NCBI RefSeq assembly: GCF_963664915.1
Contig: NZ_OY761810.1
Location: 2,184,661-2,248,660 of the forward strand
Direction: 5' to 3'
DNA: 64,000 nt
Source: an uncultured Caproiciproducens sp.
Lineage (GTDB): Bacteria; Bacillota; Clostridia; Oscillospirales; Acutalibacteraceae
A model generated the notes under the pieces. The model made no database searches. It was not told the DNA's origin and was given only the letters and a program-made list of their open reading frames with translations. Positions 17,129 to 32,884 of the stretch are shown one piece after another. Each line of letters opens with the position of its first letter. The first letter of the stretch is position 1. The translations under genes and the position numbers were made by a program.

Positions 17129-17195
17129 ATATAACCTACACCGACTGGTGGCGCCGCCTTAGCCCATCAGATAATCTACGAAAGGAGGAAACTAT

Positions 17196-17675
17196 TTGCA
17201 GGAAGAAGTGACACAAAAAACAATCGCACTTGCAGTCAGCAGTACCAAAATGACAGGCCGTGTCCTGCTGGCTGTCATTAACCATTATCTAAGACAGGTA
17301 AAAAGTAAGTCTGTTCCCAAAAGTTATCGGGGCAGGCAGACATTGAAGCAGCTTTCCAAGCAGAATGCGGGGCTTTCCAATATTGAAATCACGGACAGCA
17401 ACATCAAATCATTTGAGCGTGTGGCAAAGCAATATCATGTGGATTATGCCTTAAAAAAAGATATATCCGAAGTACCGCCACGCTACATTGTCTTTTTCAA
17501 AGGGCGGGATGTGGATGCCATTCAGCAGGCGTTCAAGGAATATGCCACCGTACAGATGAAGCAAAAGGCAAAACCCTCTATCCGTCAGGAGCTTGCAAAA
17601 CTAAAAGACATTATCCGGCTGAAACCAAAACAGCGGGCAAAGGAGAAAATCAAGGAACGGGGTGTGGAGCTATGA
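17196..17675 (+). CDS. PcfB family conjugation protein
   Basis: A 159-residue basic protein of the PcfB (DUF3801) type: EEVTQKTIALAVSSTKMTGRVL at the start, a middle segment ending YIVFFKGRDVDAIQQAF, and a Lys/Arg-rich tail. PcfB proteins are relaxosome or coupling accessories always found just before the VirD4-like gene. The start is TTG 17196 with AAAGGAGG upstream. The stop overlaps the ATG of the coupling protein. Confidence 0.88.
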   Translation: MQEEVTQKTIALAVSSTKMTGRVLLAVINHYLRQVKSKSVPKSYRGRQTLKQLSKQNAGLSNIEITDSNIKSFERVAKQYHVDYALKKDISEVPPRYIVFFKGRDVDAIQQAFKEYATVQMKQKAKPSIRQELAKLKDIIRLKPKQRAKEKIKERGVEL

Positions 17676-19462
17676 ACCCATATGTAAAAAGATTGGTGTT
17701 GTTAAATCTCCCGTATCTGTTGGTGTTCTACCTTGCAGATAAGCTGGGCTGGCTGTATCGTATGACGGCAGGTACGGATATTCTTGCTAAAATAACTGCC
17801 GCTTTCCTTGAGTTTGGAACGCTGTTCACTCCACCGTGGCCCAGTTTCCACCCGCAGGACTTACTTGTAGGACTTATCGGTGCTGCCCTTATGAAAGTGG
17901 TCATCTACACCAAAAGCAAGAATGCGAAGAAATACCGACACGGTGTGGAGTATGGTTCTGCTAGGTGGGGAACGTCTGAGGACATAAAGCCCTATGTTGA
18001 TCCAGCATTTGAAAACAATGTCATTCTCACGCAGACGGAACGCCTTACCATGAATAGCCGCCCGAAACATCCAAAGTATGCAAGAAATAAAAATGTGTTG
18101 GTCATTGGCGGCAGCGGTTCGGGCAAGACACGATTTTTTGTGAAGCCCAACCTTATGCAAATGCACTCGTCCTATGTGGTCACCGATCCCAAAGGCACGA
18201 TTTTAATCGAGTGCGGCAAGCTGCTTCAAAAGAACCATTACCGTATCAAGGCATTAAATCTTATCAATTTTTCAAAATCCATGAGGTATAATCCGCTGAC
18301 CTATATCCGAAGTGAAAAAGATATTTTGAAACTGGTAAACGCTCTTATTGTCAATACCAAAGGCGAGGGCGAAAAAGCGAGTGAGGATTTTTGGATAAAG
18401 GCAGAACGGCTTTATTATGCCGCGCTGATCGGCTACATCTGGTATGAAGCCCCGGAGGAAGAAAAAAACTTCATTACCCTGCTTGACATGATTAACGCTT
18501 CCGAAGCAAAGGAGGACGACGAGGACTATAAAAGTCCCGTTGACCTCCTTTTTGAACGTCTGGAGGAAAAGGAGCCGGAGCATTTTGCTGTGAAGCAGTA
18601 CAAAAAATACAAACTGGCTGCGGGCAAAACCGCAAAGTCCATTCTCATTTCCTGCGGTGCACGTCTTGCCCCTTTTGATATTAAGGAGCTGCGGGACTTG
18701 ATGGCCTATGACGAAATGGAGTTGGATACGCTGGGCGACAGCAAAGCCGCCCTTTTCATTATCATATCCGATACGGATAGCACCTTTAACTTTGTAGCGA
18801 CTCTTATGTACACCCAATTATTCAATCTGCTTTGCGACAAGGCAGATGATGTGTACGGCGGCAGGCTTCCTGTTCATGTGCGGTGCCTGTGCGACGAGGT
18901 GGCGAATATCGGTCAGATACCCCAGCTTGAAAAACTGATTGCCACAATCCGAAGCCGTGAAATATCGGCCTGCCTGATTTTGCAGGCACAGAGCCAGCTA
19001 AAGGCAATCTACAAGGATAACGCAGACACCATTATTGGAAACTGCGACACTACGCTTTTCTTGGGTGGTAAAGAAAAATCCACCCTGAAAGAAATATCGG
19101 AGGTCTTGGGAAAGGAGACGATTGATTTATACAACACTTCCGAAACCAGAAGTAATCAGAAGTCCTTTGGACTGAACTATCAGAAACTTGGAAAGGAGTT
19201 GATGTCACAAGACGAGCTGGCCGTTATGGATGGCGGTAAATGTATTTTGCAGTTGCGCGGTGTCCGTCCGTTCTTTTCGGATAAGTACGACATTACGAAG
19301 CACCCGAAGTACAGGCAGCTTGCAGATTATGATAAGAAAAATGCGTTTGATATTGAAAAATACCGAAAGCAGAAACCGCCCATCGTAGCAGTAAATGAAC
19401 CATTTGACTACTACGAACTGGATTTAGCGGAAACCGAAACCAACAACCCTATCACTACTTAA
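17672..19462 (+). CDS. VirD4-like type IV coupling protein (CD1115 family)
   Basis: A 596-residue membrane ATPase that delivers the relaxosome to the mating channel. N-terminal transmembrane helices (about 8-25 and 60-80) precede the Walker A GGSGSGKTRFF (about residue 145). It also has VTDPKGTILIECGKLL and a Walker B-like CLCDEVANIGQIP. Length and motif order match the CD1115 family. It overlaps PcfB by 4 bases and is followed by the Maff2 gene. Confidence 0.93.
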   Translation: MNPYVKRLVLLNLPYLLVFYLADKLGWLYRMTAGTDILAKITAAFLEFGTLFTPPWPSFHPQDLLVGLIGAALMKVVIYTKSKNAKKYRHGVEYGSARWGTSEDIKPYVDPAFENNVILTQTERLTMNSRPKHPKYARNKNVLVIGGSGSGKTRFFVKPNLMQMHSSYVVTDPKGTILIECGKLLQKNHYRIKALNLINFSKSMRYNPLTYIRSEKDILKLVNALIVNTKGEGEKASEDFWIKAERLYYAALIGYIWYEAPEEEKNFITLLDMINASEAKEDDEDYKSPVDLLFERLEEKEPEHFAVKQYKKYKLAAGKTAKSILISCGARLAPFDIKELRDLMAYDEMELDTLGDSKAALFIIISDTDSTFNFVATLMYTQLFNLLCDKADDVYGGRLPVHVRCLCDEVANIGQIPQLEKLIATIRSREISACLILQAQSQLKAIYKDNADTIIGNCDTTLFLGGKEKSTLKEISEVLGKETIDLYNTSETRSNQKSFGLNYQKLGKELMSQDELAVMDGGKCILQLRGVRPFFSDKYDITKHPKYRQLADYDKKNAFDIEKYRKQKPPIVAVNEPFDYYELDLAETETNNPITT

Positions 19463-19482
19463 AAATCAGGAGGGAAACATTT

Positions 19483-19695
19483 ATGGCATTTTTCACACAG
19501 GCAATCACCGTATTACAGACACTTGTTGTCGCACTTGGAGCAGGTCTTGCGGTCTGGGGTGTTATCAACCTCATGGAGGGCTATGGTAACGATAACCCCG
19601 GTGCAAAATCACAGGGGATGAAACAGCTCATGGCCGGCGGTGGCGTGGTGCTGATTGGTACAACCCTTATCCCCCTGCTCTCAGGCTTGTTTTAA
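19483..19695 (+). CDS. Maff2 family small membrane protein
   Basis: A 70-residue protein with two hydrophobic helices separated by a Gly/Asn-rich loop (MEGYGNDNPGAKSQGMKQLM). This is the Maff2 pattern, a small VirB2/pilin-like component of Tn1549-type transfer systems. AGGAGGG precedes the ATG. It is cotranscribed with the flanking VirD4 and VirB6-like genes. Confidence 0.88.
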   Translation: MAFFTQAITVLQTLVVALGAGLAVWGVINLMEGYGNDNPGAKSQGMKQLMAGGGVVLIGTTLIPLLSGLF

Positions 19696-19698
19696 GCC

Positions 19699-20568
19699 AT
19701 GCAGAGTATTCTCGATAAGATTACAGAAGCGATTAACGAATTTCTGATTTCGCTTATCGAGGGCAGCCTATCCACCATGTTCACCGATGTAAACGAAAAG
19801 GTGGGCACGATTGCGAGCCAGGTTGGTGCAACGCCCCAATCCTGGAACGCAGGCGTGTTTTCTGTTGTGAGGAATCTTTCGGAAACGGTGATCGTTCCCA
19901 TTGCGGGTATGATAATCACCTTTGTGCTGTGCTATGAGCTTATCACAATGATAACGGAAAAGAACAACATGCACGATATTGACACTTTCATGTTCTTTAA
20001 GTTTATCTTCAAGGCTATGGTGGCTGTTACCATTGTCACCAACACCTTTAATATTACGATGGGTGTGTTCGAGCTAGCACAAAGTGTGGTACTTAAAAGT
20101 GCCGCGGCCATATCCGGCAGCACAAATATTGATATATCATCGGCACTGTCCGGTATTCATGATACCCTTGCAGCAATGGAAACGGGGGAACTTTTCTTGC
20201 TTATGCTGACCACATCGTTAGTATCGCTCTGTATGAAAGTCCTGTCTATCTGTATCACCGTCGTACTCGTCGGCAGGATGATTGAAATCTATCTTTACTG
20301 CTCTATTGGGGCAATCCCTTTCGCTACCATGACCAATCGGGAATGGGGACAGATGGGAAACAACTACTTGAAAGGACTTATGGCTCTTGGCTTTCAGGGG
20401 TTCTTCATCATGGTGTGTATCGCCATTTATGCCGCCCTTGTCAACAACTTCACCGCAACCGGGGATTTACAGGGAACGGTGTTGAGCGTTGCCGCCTATA
20501 CGGTGGTGCTGTGCTTTACCCTCTTTAAGACAAGTTCCATTTCAAAATCCATCTTCAACGCGCATTGA
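19699..20568 (+). CDS. VirB6/TrbL-like conjugal transfer membrane protein (CD1112 family)
   Basis: A 289-residue polytopic protein with six or so membrane helices and a soluble N-terminal segment (residues 1-55), typical of the VirB6/TrbL-like channel component. It contains YCSIGAIPFATMTNREWGQM, a conserved loop of the CD1112 family. It starts 3 bases after the Maff2 stop. In intact elements the PrgI gene follows directly; here a foreign HNH gene lies between them. Confidence 0.88.
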   Translation: MQSILDKITEAINEFLISLIEGSLSTMFTDVNEKVGTIASQVGATPQSWNAGVFSVVRNLSETVIVPIAGMIITFVLCYELITMITEKNNMHDIDTFMFFKFIFKAMVAVTIVTNTFNITMGVFELAQSVVLKSAAAISGSTNIDISSALSGIHDTLAAMETGELFLLMLTTSLVSLCMKVLSICITVVLVGRMIEIYLYCSIGAIPFATMTNREWGQMGNNYLKGLMALGFQGFFIMVCIAIYAALVNNFTATGDLQGTVLSVAAYTVVLCFTLFKTSSISKSIFNAH

Positions 20569-20639
20569 TTGTTTCAGTAGATTGTATCTATCAAAGATGA
20601 TAAAATAAAAGTAAAAATTGTAGAAATGGAGCCAACAAT

Positions 20640-21383
20640 ATGAAACAGCACAAACGTTTAGGGGGCGACGATAATTTAGGATATTTTACAGAATGGGAAC
20701 GCAGTTCCGATAACGGATGTATCTATTGTGGTAACCCAGCCGATACAAGAGAACATACCCCATCAAAAGCATTTTTAAATGAACCATTTCCAGAAAACCT
20801 GCCAACAGTTCCTGCGTGTTTCAAGTGTAACAATGGGTATTCATCAGATGAAGAATATGTGTCATGTTATTTAGATGTTCTTAAAAGTAAAATTTATGAT
20901 GATTACGTTATTAAATCGAAAACGGCGGAACGCTTAGAAAAAAACATCGAGCTATCAACAGTAATCAAGGAACAAATTCAAACAGTTGATGGACAAGTCC
21001 ATTTCAAATACGATGAGAAACGTCTAATCAATGTTCTTGTGAAATTGGCACGTGGTCATGCAGGATATGAGTTTGACTATGTTAATCTCGACTGCGAGCC
21101 TTCCATTTGGTATAGCTTTGCTTTTAATATGACGCCAGAAGAAATTGTAGCATTTAACGAGATTACATTAATGGATAAAATGCCCGATGTTGGCGCAAGA
21201 GTTTATAACAGGTTATGTGTAGTTGAAGATCCACAAACAGGAAAAAATCTATATACGTTTCTCGAATGGGTTCCAGTTCAAGACGTGGAATATCGTTACA
21301 ATGTGTACTTTGATGAAAGTGATTCTATATGCGCCAAAATCTCAATCGGTGAAATGCTATTTTGTATAGTCAAATTGGATTAA
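20640..21383 (+). CDS. HNH endonuclease-like cargo protein
   Basis: A 247-residue soluble protein. The N-terminal zinc-binding HNH-like fold shows CIYCGNPADTREHTPSKAF (residues about 23-41) and CFKCNNGYSSDEEY (about 60-73): two CxxC pairs with a central His. The rest (about 90-247) is not recognised and could be a sensor or partner domain. The gene is AT-richer than the transfer genes on either side and sits between virB6-like and prgI. It has its own upstream AT-rich region and terminator, so it is an inserted cargo unit. A role in defence or competition is possible but unproven. Confidence 0.7.
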   Translation: MKQHKRLGGDDNLGYFTEWERSSDNGCIYCGNPADTREHTPSKAFLNEPFPENLPTVPACFKCNNGYSSDEEYVSCYLDVLKSKIYDDYVIKSKTAERLEKNIELSTVIKEQIQTVDGQVHFKYDEKRLINVLVKLARGHAGYEFDYVNLDCEPSIWYSFAFNMTPEEIVAFNEITLMDKMPDVGARVYNRLCVVEDPQTGKNLYTFLEWVPVQDVEYRYNVYFDESDSICAKISIGEMLFCIVKLD

Positions 21384-21416
21384 CCGAATATTACAACAAA
21401 ATACTCTTAACTATGA

Positions 21417-21452
21417 AGCAACTGAAATTAAATTCGGTTGCTTTATTTTTTT
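21417..21452 (+). terminator. Terminator after the HNH gene
   Basis: AAGCAAC (21417-21423) and GTTGCTT (21438-21444) form a stem followed by A and T7. It closes the HNH cargo unit just before the SD of prgI. Confidence 0.7.
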
Positions 21453-21469
21453 GAAAGGAGGAATTTTCA

Positions 21470-21877
21470 ATGCCTTATGTACCCGTACCAAAGGATTTGA
21501 CTATGGTAAAAACCAAAGTAGTGTTAAACCTCACAAAACGTCAGCTTATCTGCTTTTCCATTGCAGGGCTGATTGGGTTTCCCACCTACCTGATTACAAG
21601 GCAGGCACTTGGTATCACCGGGGCAGCCCTTGTGATGGTAGCCGCGGTGTTGCCGTGTTTCCTGTTCGCTATGTATGAAAAGGACGGGCAGCCCCTTGAA
21701 AGGATACTGAAAAATATGCTTCTTGTGCGGTTCTTCTCTCCAAAGGTTAGACCGTACCAGACCAATAATCTCTATGCCGCCCTTGAACGGCAGAACAAAC
21801 TGGATAAGGAGGTAGAACGTATGGGGCTACTTGGAGTATACGCAGCCGTTGACCAAAAAACAGATGATGGATTATGA
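21470..21877 (+). CDS. PrgI family conjugation protein, altered C-terminus
   Basis: A 135-residue protein of the PrgI (VirB3-like) family. It starts YVPVPKDLTMVKTKVVLNLT, has two membrane helices (about 25-45 and 48-66), and contains KNMLLVRFFSPKVRPYQTNN. The usual ending continues beyond NKLDKEVER with a charged helix, but here it turns into MGLLGVYAAVDQKTDDGL. That segment is an out-of-frame reading of a different gene's 3' end. The C-terminus is therefore a deletion fusion, and the virB4-like gene that normally follows is absent. Confidence 0.85.
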   Translation: MPYVPVPKDLTMVKTKVVLNLTKRQLICFSIAGLIGFPTYLITRQALGITGAALVMVAAVLPCFLFAMYEKDGQPLERILKNMLLVRFFSPKVRPYQTNNLYAALERQNKLDKEVERMGLLGVYAAVDQKTDDGL

Positions 21878-22103
21878 GTTGAAACCTGCATTCTCCAATT
21901 ATCTTGAAAATGCGGAAAAGTCTACGGAACAGAATTTCAATCAGATTGACGGCATTATTAACAATGAACATGCCCCAGAGCAATCCCATGATACTGCTCG
22001 TAAGCCCTCCATTAAGGAACACTTGAAAGATGCAAAAAAGGAATGTGACAGTCACAAAGAGCCCAAAGTACCGAAAATTGAGATACAGGAGCCGGAACTA
22101 TGA
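21822..22103 (+). pseudogene. C-terminal fragment of a DUF4316/YodL-like element protein
   Basis: From 21822 this frame reads WGYLEYTQPLTKKQMMDYEL and later NFNQIDGIINNEH, which resembles the C-terminal end of the DUF4316/YodL-like proteins encoded farther downstream in Tn1549-like elements. The beginning of that gene is missing. It is joined out of frame to the end of prgI at about 21820. The stop overlaps the ATG of the next small gene. Internal TTG 21831 could start translation, but the fragment is most simply a deletion remnant. Confidence 0.6.
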
Positions 22104-22273
22104 GCCGAAGTAAGAAGTGGAAACTGGAATGGAGCTTCTTTCTTGAGGCAAACGGCAGGCGACAATACAATAAGATTTGCCGCCGTTGTTCCAGAGATTG
22201 TAAGCAAAGTTTCAGGGCGGTTTTGGTGTCCTGCCCGAAGTACAATACTTCCAAACAAAAAAGCACCCCTTAA
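22100..22273 (+). CDS. Small conserved element protein with Cys motif
   Basis: A 57-residue very basic protein starting MSRSKKWKLEWSFFL, with CRRCSRDCKQSF (two CxxC-like pairs) and CPKYNTS. This type of small Cys/Arg-rich protein is common next to YodL-like genes in conjugative elements. Its function is unknown; nucleic acid binding is possible. The ATG overlaps the preceding stop, so it is translationally coupled. Confidence 0.65.
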   Translation: MSRSKKWKLEWSFFLEANGRRQYNKICRRCSRDCKQSFRAVLVSCPKYNTSKQKSTP

Positions 22274-22305
22274 AGGGTGGAAAAACAGCAAAAATATCCT
22301 TTGTA

Positions 22306-22521
22306 TTGGACGAGGAAATAGTAGGCAATACCATTTCACCTAATCGCCTGTCCTTACGAATACAGGGAGATAAAGTGCCGAAAACAGCACCATTTTTAAG
22401 CAAGAAAAATGGAAGCGAGATTGCCTTAGTGGCGGTTTCGCTTCCGTTTTTTTATTCCACAGTAGGGCATATTCTTTCCATAATGCAATCTGTTTCAATT
22501 TTGAAATCAAAGTCAGGCTGA
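22306..22521 (+). CDS. Doubtful ORF ending inside the reverse-strand receiver gene
   Basis: An open frame from TTG 22306 (DEEIVGNTISPNRLSLRIQG at its start) reads through the terminator stem and 70 bases into the convergent receiver gene. The frame is also open upstream to about 22255. The first 45 codons look protein-like; the end does not. It may be a gene truncated by insertion of the cargo operon. No SD is visible. Confidence 0.2.
   Translation: MDEEIVGNTISPNRLSLRIQGDKVPKTAPFLSKKNGSEIALVAVSLPFFYSTVGHILSIMQSVSILKSKSG
22411..22452. terminator. Bidirectional terminator between transfer genes and cargo operon
   Basis: GGAAGCGA (22411-22418) and TCGCTTCC (22438-22445) form a strong stem followed by seven T on the forward strand. 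The convergent receiver gene ends at 22452, so the hairpin separates the two converging transcripts. Confidence 0.75.
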
Positions 22522-23528
22522 CCTTGGCGTGCGTAGTATGAAGAAAACCTATTTAATATGCTCTTAACAAAAAATTCTTGAATTTTTATAATAGGCGCCC
22601 CAAATTCTTCTTTAAATTCCTGTGGTGGGTATGTAATAACATTTCGAAAATTGATATATCCTCCATCAAAAAGGCTGTTTGCAGGGAGCCAATGATAATA
22701 ATCCGTGTAATTATTTTTTATAGCATCACGGATATTATTTTTCTTCTTTTCACGCTTTGTAGCCTTTTCAGCAACTTCGCGATTAACAGAATCTTGATTA
22801 TCTATTTCGCAAACGAGTATTCTATCAGTTTTAATCTGATCATTATGCATTGCCAAATCACAAGGCGGCGATAAAACAATACAATACATACCGTCATGTT
22901 TTGATTGAACAATTGCTCCTGTCTTAATATAATCGCTAATTGGTGGTTTAATATACATTTCTTCTGTAGCATAAGAAGGAATATCGTTGTCAATTAGTTC
23001 TTGAATATGTGCAATTGCATAACGAAGTAATACTCTTTCGGTATCAACTCCTTCGTCCTTTTGCTTTTCCCAAAGAGTTATCTGAGGATAGAGGTTGTTC
23101 CAAAAAATCTGATTCATAGCATTTTCGATAATGCCTTTTCCGCCAAGCACGTTAAATAATCCTGTGGCAGTAGCCTTTGCTAATGTCTTTATGATATCCT
23201 CGTAAGTAACTTCTCCTTTTTTATAGATATGTATTGGTGAATTTTCTTCCAATTCAGTATCTGGAGTACCAGTCATTACTGCAACAGGTACTCTATATTC
23301 ATTTACAATACTCCGGATAATTTCGTTTCCACTATGTTCGCCATCTAATTTAATATCTACAATAACTCCATGATATTCATTTTTCAGTTCTAGCAATGCA
23401 TCACTAAATGTATTGGATACAACAACTTGAAACCGTTCTTCTTCAAGTTCAATATTCATTCTTTTAATTGTATCTATACAAGCATCTGCATCTTCTTTTG
23501 CATCTTCAATTAATAGAAATTTGTACAT
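22452..23528 (-). CDS. Receiver-domain protein with unrecognised C-terminal domain
   Basis: A 358-residue protein. An N-terminal receiver fold (1-115) has the acidic pair IEDAKED, phospho-acceptor D58 in VIVDIKLDG, T86 in VMTGT and K103/K104 in IYKKGE. All the parts of a phospho-switch are present. The C-terminal 240 residues carry no DNA-binding motif I know. They include GMYCIVLSPPCDLAMH, a Lys-rich segment (about 255-270) and YHWLPANSLFDGGYINFRNV. This looks like the 'response receiver' proteins found beside GHKL ATPases in defence-type islands. It lies 15 bases after the double-GHKL gene and is probably its phosphorelay partner. Whether the C-terminal part is an effector is unknown. Confidence 0.75.
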   Translation of the reverse strand: MYKFLLIEDAKEDADACIDTIKRMNIELEEERFQVVVSNTFSDALLELKNEYHGVIVDIKLDGEHSGNEIIRSIVNEYRVPVAVMTGTPDTELEENSPIHIYKKGEVTYEDIIKTLAKATATGLFNVLGGKGIIENAMNQIFWNNLYPQITLWEKQKDEGVDTERVLLRYAIAHIQELIDNDIPSYATEEMYIKPPISDYIKTGAIVQSKHDGMYCIVLSPPCDLAMHNDQIKTDRILVCEIDNQDSVNREVAEKATKREKKKNNIRDAIKNNYTDYYHWLPANSLFDGGYINFRNVITYPPQEFKEEFGAPIIKIQEFFVKSILNRFSSYYARQGQPDFDFKIETDCIMERICPTVE

Positions 23529-23543
23529 TCTCTATAAACCTCG

Positions 23544-25790
23544 CTATTCTGCGCTCAATCGGAAATGAGCACCTTTCTCATCCTGCAGTGCAGTTAGGGA
23601 TAAACCATTGCGGATAGCTGCCTCGCCTGCAATTGAAAGTCCTAATCCTGTTCCTTTGGGCTTTGTGGTAAACTGTGGTTCAAAAATGACACCACTCTCT
23701 AGTAACTCGTCACTAATACCAGGACCTGAATCTATGTATTCGATTACAATACCTTTATCGTCATCATAAGCTGCAGAAATATTAATCTGTCTATTAGAAC
23801 AGTTCTTTTCCAAAATCCAAAAAATGCTATTATCTATTAGATTAGCGAAAATGGTATATATATCTTGTTTCCATCCCACAAATTTTGTTTCATCAAAGCA
23901 TTGGATATTAACGATGATGTTTTCTTTTTTTAATTCATTTTCAAAAACAGCAACTATACCATTCAATGCCTCTGCCAACGAAAATTCAGATTTCGTTTCT
24001 CGCCTTTTTGCAGATAAGGGATCTAATCGACCAAACAAATTAACAAATACACTCGCATTATCTTCAATTCCTGCAGCTAAGTGCATGATTTCGGTGGCAG
24101 AATTTTGATCTTGACTTTGCACAAACCTATTACCGTAGAAATTTAAATTTGGTATTTGATTCTTAAAATAATTTAAAGGGCGACGTCCCTCATGTAAAAT
24201 AATATTAATTATTTTACCTAATGTTGCTTGACCTTGATAAACAGCAACCGTTTTTTTGATTTCCTCAATCGTTTCATTTTTCTTTGTCTGTTCTTTTGAA
24301 ATTATGTCAGCAACTTCATCAATGACCTCACCGGATAAACCAGCTTTTTTCAAAGAACTAGCAACTGACTTTGTTAAAGAAGAATAATCATATAAACCCT
24401 CTAACTGTTTTTCGATTTTCTTTCCAGGGTTTGAAAGCCCCAATTTCCGTCTAAACACAAAACGTCGTTGTTCCAACTCTAAAATCACATTACTGGTAAT
24501 TGTCTTCAACCTGTCGTAAGCACTGTTGTCCTTTAATCCATCACGAGCACTTTTTTCTTCCAAATGGGAAATCTCTTCTGATTCAACGTAGACGTATCCG
24601 GCCACTTGGTTACTACCGATTTTCATGGATGGATTTTGAACACGTTGCTCATTCAATTTTAACCAGTCGAAATCTGCATCGCCTAAGGGACGAATACGGA
24701 AACCGTTTCGATAAACGCCAATACCATTTACGCTATCAATCAAATGCCTAGCTTCAAGCTTAGTCACATAATTGCCGGTGTTTTCATCTTTAAGACCACG
24801 CTGAATCAATAAATCTATAGCATCCTTGTCACGATCATAAACTCTAATATCAATAATAAGTTTCCCACATTGTGTTTCTCCACAATCAAATTCAAATTGT
24901 TCTTTTACACCATTTTTAATTTTTTGATTCTCATATGTCAAGATACCTTTGCCTTCGACAGAAATCGTACCACTAATTCTATAATCAAAAAGATCTAAAA
25001 TCGGATATGGCAAAATCTGTTCCACTCTATTTTGACTTTCATCAGTAAAGAAATTTTCAAAACTAAGTTCAATCTGAAAAGAACTGTCAAAGGTAGTATC
25101 TGCTTTTGGAGGAATAAGTTTTTTCAATTCAAATCGCAATTTTTTGAGGGTAGTATCGTTCCAATATTCCTGGATATTTAAGTCTGCATGTACAGTGAGA
25201 ACTGTCCCAGATGCACCTATAGTCGTTTCAGACTGTACGGGAATATCAATTTGATCTAGGTATTCATATTTTGAAAACTGCGCCCACTCAATATACAGCG
25301 TTGTTTTTTGACCTGATTTATCAACAGTTTCTAAAAGTAAATCCTTGCCTAAAATACTGACGGCATAACGACCAATACCTTTACGCCCTTGCATAATTCG
25401 TCCTTGAGGGCTTTTTCGCTCTTTGAGCTTATAGGTAGTTGATGGAACCAACCATTTATCGATGACATCTTTTGTAGACATTCCATGACCATGATCCTCA
25501 ATTCGAATTTCCAAACAATTATTTTGAGGAATCCGTTTAAAGCAAACAATGGCATTAGGAGAATCTGCATCATAAGCATTTTTAACTAACTCAACAATAG
25601 CTGCAAATTGATCTTGTATCAATTCTTCGCCAATAGTTAGAACGTGTCGTCCTGCGGGTCTGATTCCATAAGAACTCAAGAATTCTCCTTGAAAATTCTG
25701 CGCTTGACGTTCTAGTTCTGCTTTTTCACGTTTTAGTGCACTCAATCGTTCCTGAATCACTGATATTTTTGACTTATTATCACTGTCCAT
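23544..25790 (-). CDS. Double-GHKL ATPase / histidine-kinase fusion
   Basis: A 748-residue soluble protein with two GHKL ATP-binding units. The N-terminal unit (about 45-260) is Hsp90/MORC-like: ELVKNAYDADSP, IEDHGHGMS and GRKGIGRYAVS. A middle region (about 260-520) follows. The C-terminal unit is kinase-like: an H-box-like IILHEGRRPLNYFKNQ (about 530) and HATPase motifs NLIDNSIFWI, DSGPGI and GTGLGLSIAGEA. An N-terminal coiled coil (about 5-35) may dimerise it. It overlaps the methyltransferase stop (TAATG) and the receiver gene follows, so the three act together. Plausible role: sensing of DNA or phage state with phosphotransfer to the receiver (inference). The ATG at 25790 is chosen because GGAGGTG precedes it. 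Confidence 0.85.
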   Translation of the reverse strand: MDSDNKSKISVIQERLSALKREKAELERQAQNFQGEFLSSYGIRPAGRHVLTIGEELIQDQFAAIVELVKNAYDADSPNAIVCFKRIPQNNCLEIRIEDHGHGMSTKDVIDKWLVPSTTYKLKERKSPQGRIMQGRKGIGRYAVSILGKDLLLETVDKSGQKTTLYIEWAQFSKYEYLDQIDIPVQSETTIGASGTVLTVHADLNIQEYWNDTTLKKLRFELKKLIPPKADTTFDSSFQIELSFENFFTDESQNRVEQILPYPILDLFDYRISGTISVEGKGILTYENQKIKNGVKEQFEFDCGETQCGKLIIDIRVYDRDKDAIDLLIQRGLKDENTGNYVTKLEARHLIDSVNGIGVYRNGFRIRPLGDADFDWLKLNEQRVQNPSMKIGSNQVAGYVYVESEEISHLEEKSARDGLKDNSAYDRLKTITSNVILELEQRRFVFRRKLGLSNPGKKIEKQLEGLYDYSSLTKSVASSLKKAGLSGEVIDEVADIISKEQTKKNETIEEIKKTVAVYQGQATLGKIINIILHEGRRPLNYFKNQIPNLNFYGNRFVQSQDQNSATEIMHLAAGIEDNASVFVNLFGRLDPLSAKRRETKSEFSLAEALNGIVAVFENELKKENIIVNIQCFDETKFVGWKQDIYTIFANLIDNSIFWILEKNCSNRQINISAAYDDDKGIVIEYIDSGPGISDELLESGVIFEPQFTTKPKGTGLGLSIAGEAAIRNGLSLTALQDEKGAHFRLSAE

Positions 25791-27043
25791 TACCACACCT
25801 CCAACAATGCTCTTGCAATTTTTTCTGCGAGTAGAACAGGTACGGCGTTTCCAATTTGTTTGAATGCCGTTGTTCTTGACGGTTTTCCAGATGTAGATTC
25901 AAAATAGTAGTCATCCGGAAAGGTTTGTAATCTTGCAACTTCTCTAGGAGTTAGCGAACGATTTTGCTGTATATCCGGATGAATGAAATAGTGACCATCT
26001 TTTGATATATGTGCAACGACCGTTTGTGAATAATCAATATTCGCAGCCACAACCTTAAACCTATCTAAAAAGGAATCCATATTCTTTTGAGATTGTAGTT
26101 TTTTGGGTAAATCAGTATAGCTTAATCGCTTCTTGTCCTTGTTCCATAATCTCACTGCTTTTCGATATATTGCAAGGTCTTGTGTTGTATTAGGTCTTGC
26201 ACAATGAAATGTAACTGGTTGCAAATCAAATTTTTTAATTTTAGCAGAATATAGGTATTGACCTGTATAATGAATCGTGCTAACAGGTGTAGCAACACCT
26301 ATTCCGGCTTTTAGCTTAGGTAAATCAGCAAAAATTTCTTTAACTAAATAATTGTGGTTTGTCATAGGGATCTCAGGATAGAAATCAGAGTGTACTCCTC
26401 GTTTACCAATGAGAATAATACGTTTCCTATTTTGTAATACGCCAAAATCTTTTGCATTCAATATACGATACTCCGTTGAATATCCACATTTTTTGAAAAG
26501 AGTACGCATTTTCTCAAAATACAACTTTTCGTCTTTGTCTTTAGCAGATAATAACCCTAAAACATTTTCAAACACAAAGTACTTAGGTTTGTATTTTTTT
26601 AGAAACTCGGCATATAGAATGTATAAATAGTTTCTTTTGTCTCCTACCATTCCGTTTTCATCTCTAGCTCTGCCTACGAGAGAATATGCCTGACAGGGGG
26701 GACCACCAACAATCAAATCCAATGGTTCATTGTCTAATAATGCATCTATTTTAGCAAATATCTCTTTCAAGTTTTTCTTGGAAATTTCGTAATTCAATAC
26801 GGTGTCCAAAACTTCTTGAGGAACAGAATGGTAAAATGTATTTCGATCAATAATTCTGTTTAAATAGTTCGTATAAATCGTTTCTTGGTGGTTCATAGAT
26901 AACCATTTATACGCAAGTCTGGTTTTCAGCGTGTAGCAAGCAGCTTCATCCATTTCTATATGTGCAACCGGAGTATATCCTTCTCGCAAGAAACCTTCCG
27001 ACAATCCACCCGCACCCGCAAAAATATCAAGGTATCTTGGCAT
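25790..27043 (-). CDS. C5 DNA cytosine methyltransferase
   Basis: A 417-residue DNA (cytosine-5) methyltransferase. Motif I is YLDIFAGAGGLSEGF. Motif IV is GGPPCQAYS with the catalytic Cys near residue 116. Motif VI is FENV, motif VIII QNRKRI and motif X IGNAVPVLLA. The long insert between motifs VIII and X is the target-recognition region, but the recognised site cannot be read from sequence. No restriction endonuclease gene is beside it. The neighbours are a double-GHKL ATPase and a receiver protein, so it could mark self DNA for a non-classical system or protect the element on transfer. Confidence 0.95.
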   Translation of the reverse strand: MPRYLDIFAGAGGLSEGFLREGYTPVAHIEMDEAACYTLKTRLAYKWLSMNHQETIYTNYLNRIIDRNTFYHSVPQEVLDTVLNYEISKKNLKEIFAKIDALLDNEPLDLIVGGPPCQAYSLVGRARDENGMVGDKRNYLYILYAEFLKKYKPKYFVFENVLGLLSAKDKDEKLYFEKMRTLFKKCGYSTEYRILNAKDFGVLQNRKRIILIGKRGVHSDFYPEIPMTNHNYLVKEIFADLPKLKAGIGVATPVSTIHYTGQYLYSAKIKKFDLQPVTFHCARPNTTQDLAIYRKAVRLWNKDKKRLSYTDLPKKLQSQKNMDSFLDRFKVVAANIDYSQTVVAHISKDGHYFIHPDIQQNRSLTPREVARLQTFPDDYYFESTSGKPSRTTAFKQIGNAVPVLLAEKIARALLEVW

Positions 27044-27048
27044 ATATA

Positions 27049-27291
27049 TTATACCTCCTTAGTGATTTGATATCTTTGTTGTCCAGATGAGGTTTTTAGA
27101 GCAACTTTTATAAACCCATGTTCATTGTTAACGCGGTTTAGAAATAAAGTTCCTAACAACAATCTATCTTTTCGTGATATTCTGTTCCACTCATAACCTT
27201 TGAATAAATCTCTAACTAAAAAAACTTCACCATTTTCCAAAAGATTAGTCTCTTGGAATGCAGCATCTAAAAGTGTATTTACATCAGACAT
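27049..27291 (-). CDS. DUF1413-like small protein
   Basis: An 80-residue protein with EVFLVRDLFKGYEWNRISRKDRLLLG in the middle (residues about 22-47), a pattern matching DUF1413, a small family seen in mobile elements and phages with unknown role. It ends with a basic segment. It is the first gene of the methyltransferase operon: AGGAGG lies 6 bases before the ATG, and the gap to the methyltransferase is 5 bases. It may be the operon's regulator or a DNA-binding accessory (inference). Confidence 0.6.
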   Translation of the reverse strand: MSDVNTLLDAAFQETNLLENGEVFLVRDLFKGYEWNRISRKDRLLLGTLFLNRVNNEHGFIKVALKTSSGQQRYQITKEV

Positions 27292-27340
27292 TAAAAAACC
27301 TCCTGTTATCGATATTTATAACAATAACATTATTAATATG

Positions 27341-27369
27341 ATTGTACTATAGCATGAGAAAAAAGGCAA
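27341..27369 (-). promoter_or_regulatory. Sigma-A-type promoter of the methyltransferase operon
   Basis: Read on the reverse strand, TTGCCT and TACAAT are separated by exactly 17 bases, about 50 bases upstream of the DUF1413-like gene. The cargo operon thus has its own promoter, independent of the relaxase operon. Confidence 0.55.
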
Positions 27370-27386
27370 TAAAAACATAAAGGATA

Positions 27387-27426
27387 GGAGCATGATAGCC
27401 ATTGTGACCGTCATGCTCCCATCGTT
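27387..27426. terminator. Hairpin separating the relaxase operon from the cargo operon
   Basis: GGAGCATGA (27387-27395) and TCATGCTCC (27411-27419) form a perfect 9-bp stem with a 15-base loop. It lies between the end of the DUF6050-like gene and the cargo operon promoter. Confidence 0.65.
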
Positions 27427-27434
27427 TTTCATAT

Positions 27435-27792
27435 TCAATTTTCAAACTGTGCCGTGTTTTTTGCGGCTATCAATCGCACTACCGTAAGAGGAATGTAATA
27501 CACAGCAACTAGCAACCGCCATACAAGTATCACACCACCAATCAGCCCACCTATAATAAAGTTAAGTGCCCATATTCCAACCGTGCCGCTCAAACTGTAA
27601 TTGTTTGGTATCAGCCATAGGAACATTTTACGGATGCCAAACGGGATACCGCAAAGTATCCACATGAGAAAATAATCCGTCACACCATCTTTAATAAACA
27701 CCGACTTAAATATCCCATAGAGCAACAATGCCACAACAATGGGCCATATCACTTTCTTACAAAAAGTCCTTGAAGATTTCTCCCTTTGTCAT
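27435..27792 (-). pseudogene. DUF6050-like element membrane protein, frameshifted near the start
   Basis: A protein of about 118 residues with three membrane helices. IWPIVVALLLYGIFKSVF and GIPFGIRKMFLWLIP identify the DUF6050-like family carried by these elements. The natural ATG with GGAGGGG upstream is at 27792, but it opens only 11 codons (MTKGEIFKDFL). The body is in another frame from about 27765. Removing one T from the T5 run (A5 at 27761-27765 on the forward strand) restores DFCKKVIWPIV. It is either a real +1 frameshift or a sequencing error. A GTG at 27752 could start the body but has no good SD. Confidence 0.6.
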
Positions 27793-27849
27793 GTGATCCC
27801 CTCCGTTCTGATTTGATTATACATGAAGAAACACCAGACGCCCAGCGTT

Positions 27850-29454
27850 TTAGGATAATTCGTTGCCACGCGCCTTGTCGGATTCTGTGGCAAGCAATCT
27901 ATCAATATTCGTCTTGGCTGTTTGCAAGTCGGACAGTGCTTTTTTGCTTTCCAGATATTCGGTATACAGATGATTGCTTTCAACGGTCAGGTTTTCAATC
28001 TCTAATCGCAGGATTTTCATATTGGGCAGCTTTTTATCTGGGTAAAGCTCTGCTAATTTTTTGCTTGCTGTTTCATAAAGCGAAATAGCTGTTTCGTGCT
28101 GGGCACGGTAGGCGGCTTGCTGTTTTGGCTTAGCGGTACGGTATCCATCATAAACCGCCTTATGCTGCCGAATTGCAAAGACAGCCTTTTGCAATTCCTT
28201 TTTATCGGTAAGCTTAGACCGTACTGTTTTTAATTTATGATTAGTCGTATTAATAGCAATCTGTTTTTCAGATACAATAGTGGCAAGCTGCCCGTAGTTC
28301 TCCAAACCCACGCTTTCCAGAAATACCATTGTCTGTGCCTGTAATTTGATATTGTGGATTTTCGCCCAATGCTCATATCCACGGCTGTTCTTTGCTTTGT
28401 CGCTATGCTCAATATCAATGGTGCGGCGCACCTTGTGAGTATCCTGTTTTGGTTTGGACTTCTCTGTCTGCAACTGCTCACGAATACTTGCTTTCTGTTT
28501 TAGCAGTTTGCTTTTCTCTGCGTTTAGGGCAAGAGTAGCCAGAATCGTTTCCGTATCAAAATCATCACCCAACTTACGGGCAGTAATCGGCTTTGTCCTA
28601 TCCGGCGTGAGGTAGCTGTACCGCCCACGGCTTTCCTTAACAATAATTCCATAGTCCTGCTGTAGCTTATCAGAAAATGCCGCAAAGGTGTCGGTACTCT
28701 CCAATGAGGTGCGAATATGATTACGGAGTTTTTCTTTCTCTGTTTCAAATTTCGTAACTTTGGGCTTTTGCCCCAACGCCCGCAGGTCAGCATTGCTTTT
28801 ATCTAATTCACGTTGGCCACGGCGTTCGGCCTGGTACTCCCGATCGGTGACACGGTTCTTGCTTCCATTTAACAAATCTATTTGATGAAGCCCTACCATT
28901 TGGCACATTTCCATTGTGTTGCAACGTAGTGTTCGCATGAGGGCAGAAGTGCAGCGGTGCTTCATGCCGGGGAGCGTATCACAATTCCTATCCATATAAG
29001 CCTTGCGTTCTACCTCGGAGATCCGCAGGCTGTTGATTACAATATGTACATGAATATTGCCGGAATGGTTATGCCCCTCGGGATGGGTGCAAATAATGGC
29101 TTGGTGTCCGGGGAAGCTATCATTACAAAAAGCCGTTCCCATTTCCTGTGCCTGTTCCATCGTTAAGCCATTATCGGCAGTATCACGGGGATCGAAGCTG
29201 ATTATATAATGGTGACTCTTTACATCGGCTTTTTGATTGTTCTTGCCGTAATGCAGATTGCTTTTCATACAGGCAATGGCAAAATCATCATTCCCACAAT
29301 TCAGCGTATCAAATTGATACTCCTCCCGAAGAATAAGGCTGCCATGTTCATCACGGATAGGCTTATTGGTAAATTCATTATGTTGGAAAATCAGGTATCG
29401 TTCAGCTGCACCATAATCAGCGTTTTTACTTGCAATATGTTTAATCGTTGCCAA
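27850..29454 (-). CDS. MobA-type relaxase
   Basis: A 534-residue relaxase that nicks DNA at oriT for transfer. The N-terminal domain begins ATIKHIASKNADYGAAERYL, with Tyr residues that can carry the nicking Tyr. The metal-binding HUH-type motif reads HNHSGNIHVHIVINS (about residues 140-154). The C-terminal half (about 300-534) is helical and coiled-coil rich. I chose TTG 29454 because the protein then starts as in relatives and overlaps the end of mobC; earlier starts lie inside mobC. Transcription runs opposite to the transfer operon. Confidence 0.9.
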   Translation of the reverse strand: MATIKHIASKNADYGAAERYLIFQHNEFTNKPIRDEHGSLILREEYQFDTLNCGNDDFAIACMKSNLHYGKNNQKADVKSHHYIISFDPRDTADNGLTMEQAQEMGTAFCNDSFPGHQAIICTHPEGHNHSGNIHVHIVINSLRISEVERKAYMDRNCDTLPGMKHRCTSALMRTLRCNTMEMCQMVGLHQIDLLNGSKNRVTDREYQAERRGQRELDKSNADLRALGQKPKVTKFETEKEKLRNHIRTSLESTDTFAAFSDKLQQDYGIIVKESRGRYSYLTPDRTKPITARKLGDDFDTETILATLALNAEKSKLLKQKASIREQLQTEKSKPKQDTHKVRRTIDIEHSDKAKNSRGYEHWAKIHNIKLQAQTMVFLESVGLENYGQLATIVSEKQIAINTTNHKLKTVRSKLTDKKELQKAVFAIRQHKAVYDGYRTAKPKQQAAYRAQHETAISLYETASKKLAELYPDKKLPNMKILRLEIENLTVESNHLYTEYLESKKALSDLQTAKTNIDRLLATESDKARGNELS

Positions 29455-29818
29455 CGGCTTCACCCAACTTTTCAAGGACGCGGTATTTAAGGGTGTACAG
29501 TTCTGCAACGGCGGTTCGCACCTCTGCGGTCACTTCCTTTGTGAACATTCCACCCTCATTTAATCGACGGGCAATCTGATTAAGGTTGCCGCCAATTTTG
29601 CCGTATTCAGCAATCAATGTACCAACATCATTCAGGGCATTGGTGGGCGTAATACGAATGACCGGCTGTATCTTGGCGGTCAATATCGCTTGGCGGATAT
29701 ATTCGGCGGCACTCATGCCGAGAACGTTCAGGCGTTCATCAAAGACGGCCTTTTCCTCTTGGGAAAGACGTGTCTTGATAACGCAGGCACGCTTGGGCGT
29801 GTTATAAGGTTTTCGCAT
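29441..29818 (-). CDS. MobC-type mobilisation protein
   Basis: A 125-residue relaxosome accessory protein. An N-terminal ribbon-helix-helix-like region (VIKTRLSQEEKAVFDERLN) is followed by the conserved MobC motif GGNLNQIARRLNEG (about residues 83-96). It helps the relaxase open DNA at oriT. The ATG at 29818 (MRKPYNTPKR) is chosen because AAAGGAC precedes it and relatives start there. It overlaps the relaxase start by 14 bases. Confidence 0.88.
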   Translation of the reverse strand: MRKPYNTPKRACVIKTRLSQEEKAVFDERLNVLGMSAAEYIRQAILTAKIQPVIRITPTNALNDVGTLIAEYGKIGGNLNQIARRLNEGGMFTKEVTAEVRTAVAELYTLKYRVLEKLGEAVGND

Positions 29819-29844
29819 AGAGAAAACACCGTCCTTTCGCAATA

Positions 29845-29985
29845 GCAGGGTTTGGGGCAGGCACGCCCCAACAAGTACAGACCAAAGGATGCCCAAATGA
29901 GCCGATAGGCGAAATTTGGTGCCATGGTCGATACTTGCTCTTAGTTTCTTCCGTACTACTTCTGTACTATTACTACGGAATAGAT
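29845..29985. other. Candidate oriT region upstream of mobC
   Basis: Directly upstream of mobC lie a perfect stem TTGGGGC/GCCCCAA (29851-29857 and 29864-29870) and, further out, TTCCGTA/TACGGAA (29949-29955 and 29974-29980) flanking GTACTA direct repeats. Inverted repeats just before mobC are the expected place for an origin of transfer. The nick site cannot be fixed from sequence alone. The rest of the 360-base gap to the next gene holds the promoter at 30092. Confidence 0.45.
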
Positions 29986-30091
29986 GCCGTGAAATGCCAA
30001 ATTTGCATGATAATATATGACATTTTTATTCAAGTCATTGAGTGAATTCTGATTGTTACGTTACTCTTCTATTATTAATTTTAAGCAACTA

Positions 30092-30120
30092 TTGCAATCT
30101 AAAAATAAAAGTAGTAAAAT
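30092..30120 (+). promoter_or_regulatory. Sigma-A-type promoter of the UvrA-like gene
   Basis: TTGCAA (30092-30097) and TAAAAT (30115-30120) are separated by 17 bases, about 65 bases before the UvrA-like ATG. Confidence 0.55.
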
Positions 30121-30185
30121 ATAATTAACCCAGTTATATATTTACACGGTAATGTAATTTACTTAAATGCTTGAGAGGTGATTTT

Positions 30186-32453
30186 ATGGAGAAAGAAAAT
30201 ATAGAAGAATTCATACACGTGGTTGGAGCAAGAGAAAAAAATCTTAAAAATATAGATGTAAAAATCCCCAAGAAAAGGATCACTGTCTTTACTGGTGTTT
30301 CTGGTTCAGGGAAATCATCTTTGGTATTTGATACAATAGCAGCAGAATCACAACGGCAGCTAAATGAAACATATTCAAGTTTTATTCGCCATCGCTTACC
30401 ACATTATGGGCAGCCCAATGTAGATACCATTGAAAATTTATCTGTAGCAATTATCATTGATCAAAAGCGTATTGGCGGAAATGCGAGGTCAACGGTTGGG
30501 ACAATTACCGACATATATTCTTTACTGAGATTATTGTTTTCTCGTATAGGAAAACCCTTTGTAGGTTATTCCGATGTTTTTTCATTTAACAATCCTCAAG
30601 GAATGTGCCCTATGTGTGAGGGGCTTGGAAAAATCGATATGATAAATATTGACCGCCTGTTAAATAGAAATAAGTCATTGAATGAGGGTGCAATTTTATT
30701 TCCAACCTTTGAGCCGGGAGGATGGAGGTTAAAAAGATATATTCACTCAGGCTTTTTTGATAATGAGAAAAAAGTAAAAGACTTTACAGAAGAAGAATTA
30801 GAGTTACTTTTATATAAGTCAGATATTAAAGTAACCACTTCCGATCCCGAATGGCCTAAGACATCTCTTTATGAAGGACTGATTCCTAGAATTGAGCGAA
30901 GTTTTCTTAAAAAAGAAGATGGCGAAGCTACCAAATACAAAAAAGAAATAGCTAAGATCGTTGGTAAAGAAACGTGCCCTGACTGTGGGGGTGCTAGATT
31001 ATCACAATCTGTTTTGCAATGTAAAATAAACAATAATAATATTGCGGACTGTGTTACAATGCAAATTACAGATTTAATGGATTTCATCAGCACCATTAAC
31101 GACCCTAAAGCTGCAACTATGATTATGGCTATAACTAATCGGCTGGAACATTTAGTTTCAATCGGTCTCGGCTATTTAAGCCTAAATAGAGAAACCTCAA
31201 CGCTTTCCGGCGGTGAATCGCAGCGGATAAAAATGGTTCGGCAATTAGGCAGCAGCTTAACTGGTCTTACGTACATCTTTGATGAGCCAAGCATTGGTTT
31301 ACACCCGCATGATGTAGATAAAATCATTACGCTTTTAAAGCTTTTACGAGACAAAGGAAATACCGTTTTGATTGTTGAGCATGATCCGGATGTTGTTAGA
31401 ATTGCAGATTATGTCATTGACATGGGGCCGAAAGCTGGTATCAACGGTGGTAAAATAACTTATCAGGGTTCATTAGATGGTCTTGTACATTCAGATACGC
31501 TGACAGGCAAAACTTTGTGCAGCCAACCCCGGTTAAAAGAGAATATTAGAACTTCCTCTGAACATTTGTCTTTAGAAAAAGCTCAGTTACACAATCTTAA
31601 AAATATTAGTGTAGATATTCCGAAAGGTATTATGACAGTCGTGACGGGCGTCGCTGGTTCAGGTAAAAGTACGTTAATCAATCAGGTTTTACCTAAAGTT
31701 TATCCTGATACAATTTTTATTGACCAGAAGCCAATACAAACCTCAAAGAGATCTAATGTTGCAACTTTTACAGGAATTTTTGATGATATTAGAGAACTAT
31801 TTTCAAAAGCAAATCATGTCAAACCTGCTTTGTTTAGCTTTAATTCACAAGGCGCTTGCCCCAACTGTAAGGGCTTGGGCGTAACCTATACAGACTTGGC
31901 GTTTATGGACACAGTCGTTACTGTGTGCGAGGTCTGCCAAGGAAAGCGATTTACAGACGAAGTATTAAGCTATCAATTGCGCGGTAAAAGTATTAGTGAT
32001 ATTTTAAATATGACCGTTGACGACGCCTTAGATTTCTTCTATGAAAAAGAAATAGTATCTACTTTGAAAAGATTAGCAGATGTAGGAATCACTTATATTA
32101 CGCTTGGACAACCATTAAATACCTTATCTGGAGGCGAATTGCAAAGAGTAAAACTTGCATCAGAGTTGGAAAACAGAGGAAATATTTATGTGCTGGACGA
32201 GCCTACAACAGGACTTCATATGTCCGACATATCGCAGTTGCTTAAAGTTTTGAACCGCTTGATTGAACAGGGTAGCACTGTAATTGTAATAGAACATAAT
32301 TTAGATGTGATCAGTCAAGCGGATTGGATTATAGACTTAGGACCTCTTGCTGGGCAAAATGGTGGAAATATCATGTTTGAGGGAATACCAAGGGATTTAA
32401 TCAATTGTACCTCTTCCATTACAGGACAGTATCTAAAAAAATATATTAAATAA
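30186..32453 (+). CDS. UvrA-like ABC ATPase, possible drug-resistance protein
   Basis: A 755-residue protein with two ABC units of the UvrA type. Walker A sequences are GVSGSGKSSLVFDT and GVAGSGKSTLINQV. Zinc-finger pairs are CPMCEGLG, CPDCGGARL, CPNCKGLGV and CEVCQGKRF. Signatures are LSGGESQRIKMVRQ and LSGGELQRVKLASE, with Walker B segments IFDEPSIGLHP and VLDEPTTGLHM. It is about 190 residues shorter than repair UvrA, in the size range of DrrC-like proteins that confer resistance to DNA-binding drugs. A MarR-type regulator follows 11 bases later, which fits inducible resistance. ATG 30186 is chosen (GAGAGGTG upstream) over TTG 30171. Confidence 0.85.
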   Translation: MEKENIEEFIHVVGAREKNLKNIDVKIPKKRITVFTGVSGSGKSSLVFDTIAAESQRQLNETYSSFIRHRLPHYGQPNVDTIENLSVAIIIDQKRIGGNARSTVGTITDIYSLLRLLFSRIGKPFVGYSDVFSFNNPQGMCPMCEGLGKIDMINIDRLLNRNKSLNEGAILFPTFEPGGWRLKRYIHSGFFDNEKKVKDFTEEELELLLYKSDIKVTTSDPEWPKTSLYEGLIPRIERSFLKKEDGEATKYKKEIAKIVGKETCPDCGGARLSQSVLQCKINNNNIADCVTMQITDLMDFISTINDPKAATMIMAITNRLEHLVSIGLGYLSLNRETSTLSGGESQRIKMVRQLGSSLTGLTYIFDEPSIGLHPHDVDKIITLLKLLRDKGNTVLIVEHDPDVVRIADYVIDMGPKAGINGGKITYQGSLDGLVHSDTLTGKTLCSQPRLKENIRTSSEHLSLEKAQLHNLKNISVDIPKGIMTVVTGVAGSGKSTLINQVLPKVYPDTIFIDQKPIQTSKRSNVATFTGIFDDIRELFSKANHVKPALFSFNSQGACPNCKGLGVTYTDLAFMDTVVTVCEVCQGKRFTDEVLSYQLRGKSISDILNMTVDDALDFFYEKEIVSTLKRLADVGITYITLGQPLNTLSGGELQRVKLASELENRGNIYVLDEPTTGLHMSDISQLLKVLNRLIEQGSTVIVIEHNLDVISQADWIIDLGPLAGQNGGNIMFEGIPRDLINCTSSITGQYLKKYIK

Positions 32454-32464
32454 GGAGAATTCTC

Positions 32465-32884
32465 ATGGCTAAAAAAGAATTAGAAAATTGCTATATCCCT
32501 TTTCAGTGTATGATTATCAACAATATCAATCGCTTTAATATCGAGGGAGTGACAACAGCACAATATAATGTATTGGATATTTTAGATAAGCAAGGCTCTA
32601 AGACTACAAAGGAGCTGGCAGAAATCAGGGGGATTACTCAGGCTGGGATGTCTAAACTGACCAAAAGATTGTTAGATAAAAAATACATCATTCAAAAGCG
32701 GCGTGTATCAGACCGCAGAGCCTATGATATTCTAATTACTTCGGATGGCAAGGATTTTCTTGTAAGATCAGAAAAGTTCAGAAATGAAATTATGGATTTA
32801 ATTGAAAATACTCTTTCCGAAAAAGAGCTAGATTGTTTTGTACAGCTTTGCAAGAAAATTACTGATTCATATGTTGAGGAATAA
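32465..32884 (+). CDS. MarR-family transcriptional regulator
   Basis: A 139-residue winged-helix protein. TTAQYNVLDILDKQGSKTTKEL is followed by ITQAGMSKLTKRLLDKKYI (recognition helix) and the wing QKRRVSDRRAYDILITSDG, all typical of MarR. C-terminal helices mediate dimerisation. It sits 11 bases after the UvrA-like gene with AAGGAG upstream, so it probably controls that gene in response to a ligand. Confidence 0.9.
   Translation: MAKKELENCYIPFQCMIINNINRFNIEGVTTAQYNVLDILDKQGSKTTKELAEIRGITQAGMSKLTKRLLDKKYIIQKRRVSDRRAYDILITSDGKDFLVRSEKFRNEIMDLIENTLSEKELDCFVQLCKKITDSYVEE

Follow-up and report, generated by a model that had tools for sequence, protein, structure and literature searches.

The window analyzed here is the whole 64,000-nucleotide stretch of contig NZ_OY761810.1 (positions 2,184,661 to 2,248,660) from an uncultured Caproiciproducens sp., and the system in question is an operon of four minus-strand genes within it. 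The genes are real and correctly placed and encode, in order, a DUF1413 protein of 80 residues (27049..27291; Pfam PF07205, E 2.9e-19), a C5-cytosine DNA methyltransferase of 417 residues (25790..27043; PF00145, 2e-58), a double-GHKL kinase-like protein of 748 residues (23544..25790; PF13589 and PF02518) and a receiver protein of 358 residues (22452..23528). A hairpin terminator, to which no strand is assigned, lies directly 3' of the operon (22406..22450). An original prediction, made from the DNA letters and their translations, had named these genes, and the Pfam matches agree with it, including the kinase-type C terminus of the double-GHKL protein. The operon's own promoter, which was also claimed, was rejected as an established feature.

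In order to compare the operon with its relatives, 158 loci were analyzed (the window, L004-L007, L009-L152 and L176-L184; L001-L003, L008 and later loci were excluded). The genome scan gave 79 loci from many phyla, ranging from 68% (L009, an Oscillospiraceae metagenome-assembled genome) to 24% identity; it covers the best 80 of at least 549 matches, and its counts lean to close relatives and to two conserved motifs. Viral contigs gave 65 kinase loci. Full-length kinases numbered 154, four kinases shorter than 600 residues having been removed beforehand. The N-terminal MORC/MutL-type GHKL ATPase domain (residues 63-184, 25239..25604, minus strand; HATPase_c_3, 7e-18) carries nine residues that are invariant in all 154 (E67, N71, D74, D99, G101, G103, G135, G138 and G140). 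The candidate phospho-accepting histidine, H533 in an HEGR motif of the DHp-like region (24192..24194, minus strand), is retained in 151; the three kinases without it (L182-L184) form one small group, and their partners lack the output domain with a predicted MazF/CcdB fold. The C-terminal histidine-kinase-type ATPase domain (residues 643-745, 23556..23864, minus strand; HATPase_c, 1.7e-17) keeps N650 and N654 in 152 kinases and D687 in 140, with asparagine at the last position in 12. The kinase-like protein is of soluble type, with a MORC/MutL-type ATPase in the place of the sensor. The conservation of the histidine, the aspartate and the ATPase residues is evidence, though not proof, that the relay and both ATPases are functional.

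A same-strand gene follows within 200 bp downstream of 147 of the 154 kinases, the other 7 having none. A two-motif receiver test, a regular expression of our own making, was passed by 128 of these 147 partners compared with 68 of 995 other neighbor genes and 15 of 147 shuffled partners; a laxer version passed 146 of the 147. The receiver domain of the window protein (residues 1-128, 23145..23528, minus strand) holds the phospho-acceptor candidate D58 (23355-23357) named in the original prediction; this residue is kept in 80 of 80 receiver rows. An AlphaFold2 model of the receiver protein, built on an alignment of 53 rows drawn from 64 candidates and the window, reached a mean predicted local distance difference test score of 92.2 and a predicted template modeling score of 0.81. 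Searches with the full-length receiver (VIA and Foldseek) mainly recovered the receiver domain. The model predicts a MazF/CcdB toxin fold for the output domain (residues 184-358, 22452..22979, minus strand). Conserved residues within this domain are C223 in a P-x-C-D motif (22860..22862, minus strand; cysteine in 53 of 53 alignment rows and in 80 of 80 receiver rows), D224 (48 of 53), P282 (53 of 53), R334 (51 of 53) and G336 (53 of 53). No report of a MazF-type fold in these receivers, or of a test of such a module, was found among PMC full texts.

The output domain is tied to the system by its distribution. Its profile was matched by 80 of the 147 partners at E≤1e-3, and 22 longer partners (430-530 residues) match it as a group (probability 94.4, E 8.4e-8). 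In another 19 partners, among them those of L122, L117 and L150, the C-terminal part is a different one, without a match to Pfam or to the MazF-fold profile. Partners shorter than 260 residues number 20, and in 12 of these an HNH gene of one family, with PF01844 found in its representative, follows at a distance of 624-724 bp from the kinase; with four fragments set aside (three receivers near contig ends and one kinase), the count is 12 of 16. Loci with a short receiver followed by the HNH nuclease gene (L124, L145, L179 and others) form a sister system with a separate effector. Among the 80 output-domain partners, an HNH-like gene lies within 4 kb only in the window, where both family and arrangement differ, and this single count rests on a profile of the window's own gene, the other HNH profile giving 0 of 80. 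The comparison of 12/16 with 1/80 gives a Fisher p of 3.6e-11 with loci treated as independent; 9 of the 154 kinases are more than 90% identical to another (10 pairs), none of them among the 16 short-partner loci. All 83 output-profile matches in the 158 loci are receivers of these loci, and the four matches in 391 genomes of the class all lie beside the kinase. The slot pattern and these exclusive matches therefore indicate that the output domain belongs to the system and occupies the place that a nuclease holds elsewhere.

The methyltransferase is, as judged from its sequence, intact, with M.HaeIII as the nearest solved structure (1.1e-28), and it is the single C5 methyltransferase of its own genome at E≤1e-20. 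Sufficient flanking sequence is available for 45 genome loci of this receiver type; within 5 kb, 36 of them have a C5 methyltransferase gene and 15 a Vsr gene, consistent with the predicted link to restriction-like neighborhoods; as background, the whole genomes of 60 relatives (1-3.7 Mb) hold 34 C5 methyltransferase genes. Over 27 triplets, pairwise distances correlated at r 0.944 for kinase and receiver, 0.862 for kinase and methyltransferase and 0.855 for receiver and methyltransferase, and 0 of 2000 permutations were as high. The co-occurrence check of the four-gene neighborhood, proposed with the original prediction, thus came out in favor of kinase-receiver adjacency and of a methyltransferase in most bacterial loci, but not of the DUF1413 gene, which lies beside the methyltransferase in only 3 of the 158 loci (the window, L009 and L177). 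We rejected the DUF1413 protein as a general part of the module and regard it as accessory to a narrow branch. Its DNA matches a gene of Enterococcus plasmids named "single-stranded DNA-binding protein," a name taken as a loose label.

Among the closest gene orders is DUF1413-methyltransferase-kinase-receiver, found in L009; the compact order without other genes recurs in L009, L010, L013, L014 and L088. The other closest orders, those of the close relatives G530 (L176) and G423 (L177), add a Vsr endonuclease gene immediately after the receiver: methyltransferase-kinase-receiver-Vsr in G530, and in G423 this order with a DUF1413 gene in front and a broken kinase gene. By tblastn, 296 plasmid records match the kinase, and in 48 of these the match spans at least 80% of its length; Campylobacter, Hymenobacter and Enterobacter records rank among the best. 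Four plasmid records hold relatives with 51-34% identity. Conjugative plasmids make up 39 of 42 plasmid records of relatives. On a Campylobacter jejuni plasmid (L006), a C5 methyltransferase gene stands convergent to the kinase-receiver pair, an arrangement that recurs on conjugative plasmids in about 40 Campylobacter records. Kinase matches at E≤1e-30 occur in 11 of 391 genomes of the window's own class, and four phage records have a kinase match, one of which covers at least 80%. The kinase-receiver DNA of Enterobacter mori had no match in 20,395 Escherichia coli records by blastn, the only search used there.

The window operon, flanked by prgI on one side and a relaxase gene on the other, belongs to a conjugative-type element that has a serine recombinase; a VirB4-type gene was not seen among the scanned open reading frames. 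About 1 kb from the operon, on the opposite strand and with prgI between, is a convergent gene for a protein of 247 residues (20640..21383, plus strand), a possible but unproven partner. It has no Pfam match at E≤0.01, and we name it HNH-like on the basis of how we interpret its Cys/His pattern. Only L092 and L078 among the other loci of the 158 have homologues, in both cases directly after a kinase-receiver pair. The alignments of trbL and prgI are 3 bases apart in G061 and about 140 in G028, leaving no room for the HNH-like gene that stands between them in the window, so this gene is a separate insertion. The original prediction that the combination has no nuclease gene is partly wrong: the operon holds no separate restriction enzyme, but this HNH-like gene lies nearby, Vsr genes follow the receiver in G530 and G423, and a toxin fold is predicted for the C-terminal half of the receiver protein. 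About 0.3 kb behind prgI, window positions 21877-22240 match DNA of a related element (G004) located 12.6 kb beyond prgI; with its match displaced in this way, the window element has probably lost a block of the transfer region there. On the other side of the operon, a UvrA-like protein with a duplicated ABC ATPase is encoded ahead of a MarR-like regulator (30171-32884, plus strand); this appears to be further element cargo, and weak PADLOC matches (mad3) look like generic ABC similarity.

We infer from these features a mobile-element-borne, methyltransferase-linked phosphorelay that would free a toxin-fold effector fused to the receiver, and we give this reading, with the input, phosphotransfer, toxicity and defensive role that it supposes, roughly even chances. 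The methyltransferase, as its family suggests, would place the module's own mark on DNA, and the N-terminal MORC-type ATPase, serving together with the methyltransferase as a clamp on DNA, may read the presence of this mark. The trigger would be unmarked incoming DNA from a phage or plasmid, or a mark that fades after loss of the element. The kinase would then phosphorylate D58, as the conserved histidine and aspartate suggest, and the phosphorylated receiver may dimerize or open to release the output domain, a step suggested by the fold and the slot pattern. Once released, the output domain would stop growth or block the invader, using a chemistry that differs from MazF's. Such a system would work like restriction-modification or toxin-antitoxin, with a phosphorelay-switched toxin-fold effector replacing the restriction enzyme. 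A broader version, which we put forward tentatively and consider somewhat improbable as a whole, is a restriction-modification system without a restriction enzyme in which a methylation-reading MORC-type ATPase arms the toxin-fold receiver by His-Asp transfer; with its swappable output (fused toxin fold, separate HNH nuclease or other domains), this chassis would be a modular phosphorelay immune platform coupled to DNA methylation.

Several observations weigh against the effector reading. The best Foldseek match for the output domain has an E of 2.4e-3, its profile found no PDB sequence at E≤10, and its hhalign comparison with 30 MazFs was not significant (probability 1.1, E 0.046). All 30 MazFs from relatives have a GSEQ..RP catalytic loop that joins strands 1 and 2 and that the output domain lacks; the corresponding loop has 3-10 residues and no conserved arginine. 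We therefore do not predict ribonuclease activity, and the domain may instead have a role in binding or regulation. With a nonsignificant hhalign result and a missing loop, a canonical MazF ribonuclease was rejected. The 19 partners with the other C terminus (330-412 residues) do not match the output profile (probability 0.1), and neither the kinase nor the window's receiver is covered by a PADLOC model. As for the methyltransferase, just 12 of the 45 genome loci have it immediately upstream, and the linkage is weaker on viral contigs: of 12 loci with this receiver type, 4 have a C5 methyltransferase gene no more than 5 kb away and another 4 an N6/N4-type one, and of 36 viral loci with other partners, 16 have a C5 gene at that range. 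The distance correlation also reflects shared descent.

The missing MazF loop suits a rival explanation, a regulatory module, in which the output domain would be a catalytically dead MazF/CcdB-fold binder of DNA, RNA or gyrase/methyltransferase and the phosphorelay would only tune how strongly the methyltransferase or a linked restriction-modification system is expressed or how active it is. MazF and Kid family members are known to occupy their own operators when complexed with antitoxins, which counts for this explanation. Signaling control over restriction-modification was also suggested by Bellieny-Rabelo, Pretorius and Moleleki (2021; PMC8011034) for a related module. However, the conserved set of C223, D224, P282, R334 and G336 resembles an active or ligand site, an HNH gene fills the same slot elsewhere, and the window operon holds no separate restriction enzyme to regulate, and we consider a purely regulatory role rather unlikely.

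Restriction by a separate nuclease gene would instead have the HNH-like protein in the window, or Vsr elsewhere, cut DNA under license from the kinase-receiver pair. The HNH-like homologues directly behind the pairs in L092 and L078 point in this direction, as do the Vsr families in 35 of the 158 loci and the Vsr genes that directly follow the receiver in G530 and G423. The position of the window gene makes this improbable: it is convergent with the operon, 1 kb off and beyond prgI, it is a separate insertion by the G061/G028 comparison, and it recurs in only two other loci. Finally, the operon may serve element maintenance rather than antiphage defense, with loss of the element diluting the methyltransferase, the mark fading and the kinase-receiver arm hitting the host. 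Its place between prgI and a relaxase gene on a conjugative-type element, and the conjugative plasmids of its relatives (39 of 42 records), would suit addiction of this kind. Nevertheless, the same parts also fit defense, and the two uses are not mutually exclusive; for maintenance in place of defense we see little probability.

The DISARM core consists of DrmA, DrmB and DrmC beside DrmM. Although DrmMII is the best PADLOC model for the window methyltransferase (PDLC02649, 2.2e-169), membership in DISARM was rejected, as 0 of 10 neighbors (16265-32884) match a Drm model; the same 10 scanned neighbors include no MZA core protein. The paraMORC ATPases of restriction-modification islands (Iyer, Abhiman and Aravind, 2008; PMC2292703) are described as GHKL+S5 proteins found with helicases and nucleases, and share with the window an N-terminal GHKL ATPase beside cytosine methylases, their operons also having Vsr and HNH genes; the words "receiver" and "two-component" do not occur in that text. 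Compared with MazF, Kid and CcdB toxins, the output domain lacks the MazF catalytic loop, is fused to a receiver and has its own invariant Cys, Gly and Pro residues, and no antitoxin gene is seen. Detocs, a defensive two-component system, has three genes, and its best-described effector is a purine nucleoside phosphorylase that cleaves ATP. Common to it and the window module is the concept of an effector switched by a kinase and its receiver, as presented in PMC11249213. By description, the two are set apart by the DNA methyltransferase and the MazF/CcdB-like output fold of the window module; the PADLOC matches of its kinase and receiver include no Detocs model, with no direct comparison made.

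The nearest known system is the "TCS-like" (two-component-system-like) module of the 2021 report, according to the part of PMC8011034 available to us. It combines a C5 methyltransferase, a HATPase_c_3/DHp/HATPase_c protein and a receiver, so the original claim of an undescribed combination fails. There, the soluble kinase-like protein has a DHp-like HEF_HK domain (PF19191) and a receiver-like neighbor (PF19192, Response_reg_2), the pair is linked in 91.6% of 644 regions, C5 methyltransferases lie upstream and Vsr genes often downstream, and a paraMORC origin was suggested alongside the signaling control mentioned above; that part of the report names no fold for the C-terminal part of the receivers. 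The window and its relatives share the protein with HATPase_c_3, a His-helix and HATPase_c, the adjacent receiver, the upstream C5 methyltransferase and Vsr genes nearby, but the window has HEGR in place of the HEF-type motif, a compact receiver protein of 358 residues and a near-canonical receiver domain. The window kinase has no PF19191 match at E≤1 (the best in its genome, 14.7 bits against a cut-off of 24.1, lies elsewhere), the window receiver has no PF19192 match at E≤1, and 0 of 53 receivers match PF19192 at E≤0.01. In 40 genomes holding relatives, PF19192 has one match, which is not the kinase's partner, and in 148 other genomes three PF19192 proteins exceed the cut-off. Profile comparisons relate the DHp and CA region to the published HEF_HK proteins (probability 99.5, E 6.2e-23, 225 columns) and the receivers to PF19192-type receivers (probability 96.5, E 8.3e-10, 160 columns, wholly in the C-terminal domain). 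On this profile similarity, the window pair is a divergent branch of the TCS-like module. As far as the available part of the 2021 report goes, the module was left without an output, and a toxin-type fold at that place offers a testable effector hypothesis, to which the apparent replacement by an HNH nuclease in other branches adds. Such a system would bring His-Asp signaling together with DNA methylation and growth arrest on a single compact mobile cassette that occurs in many phyla. As a kind, the kinase-switch pair is already known, but the toxin-like tail predicted for its switch protein suggests a way in which such systems may work.
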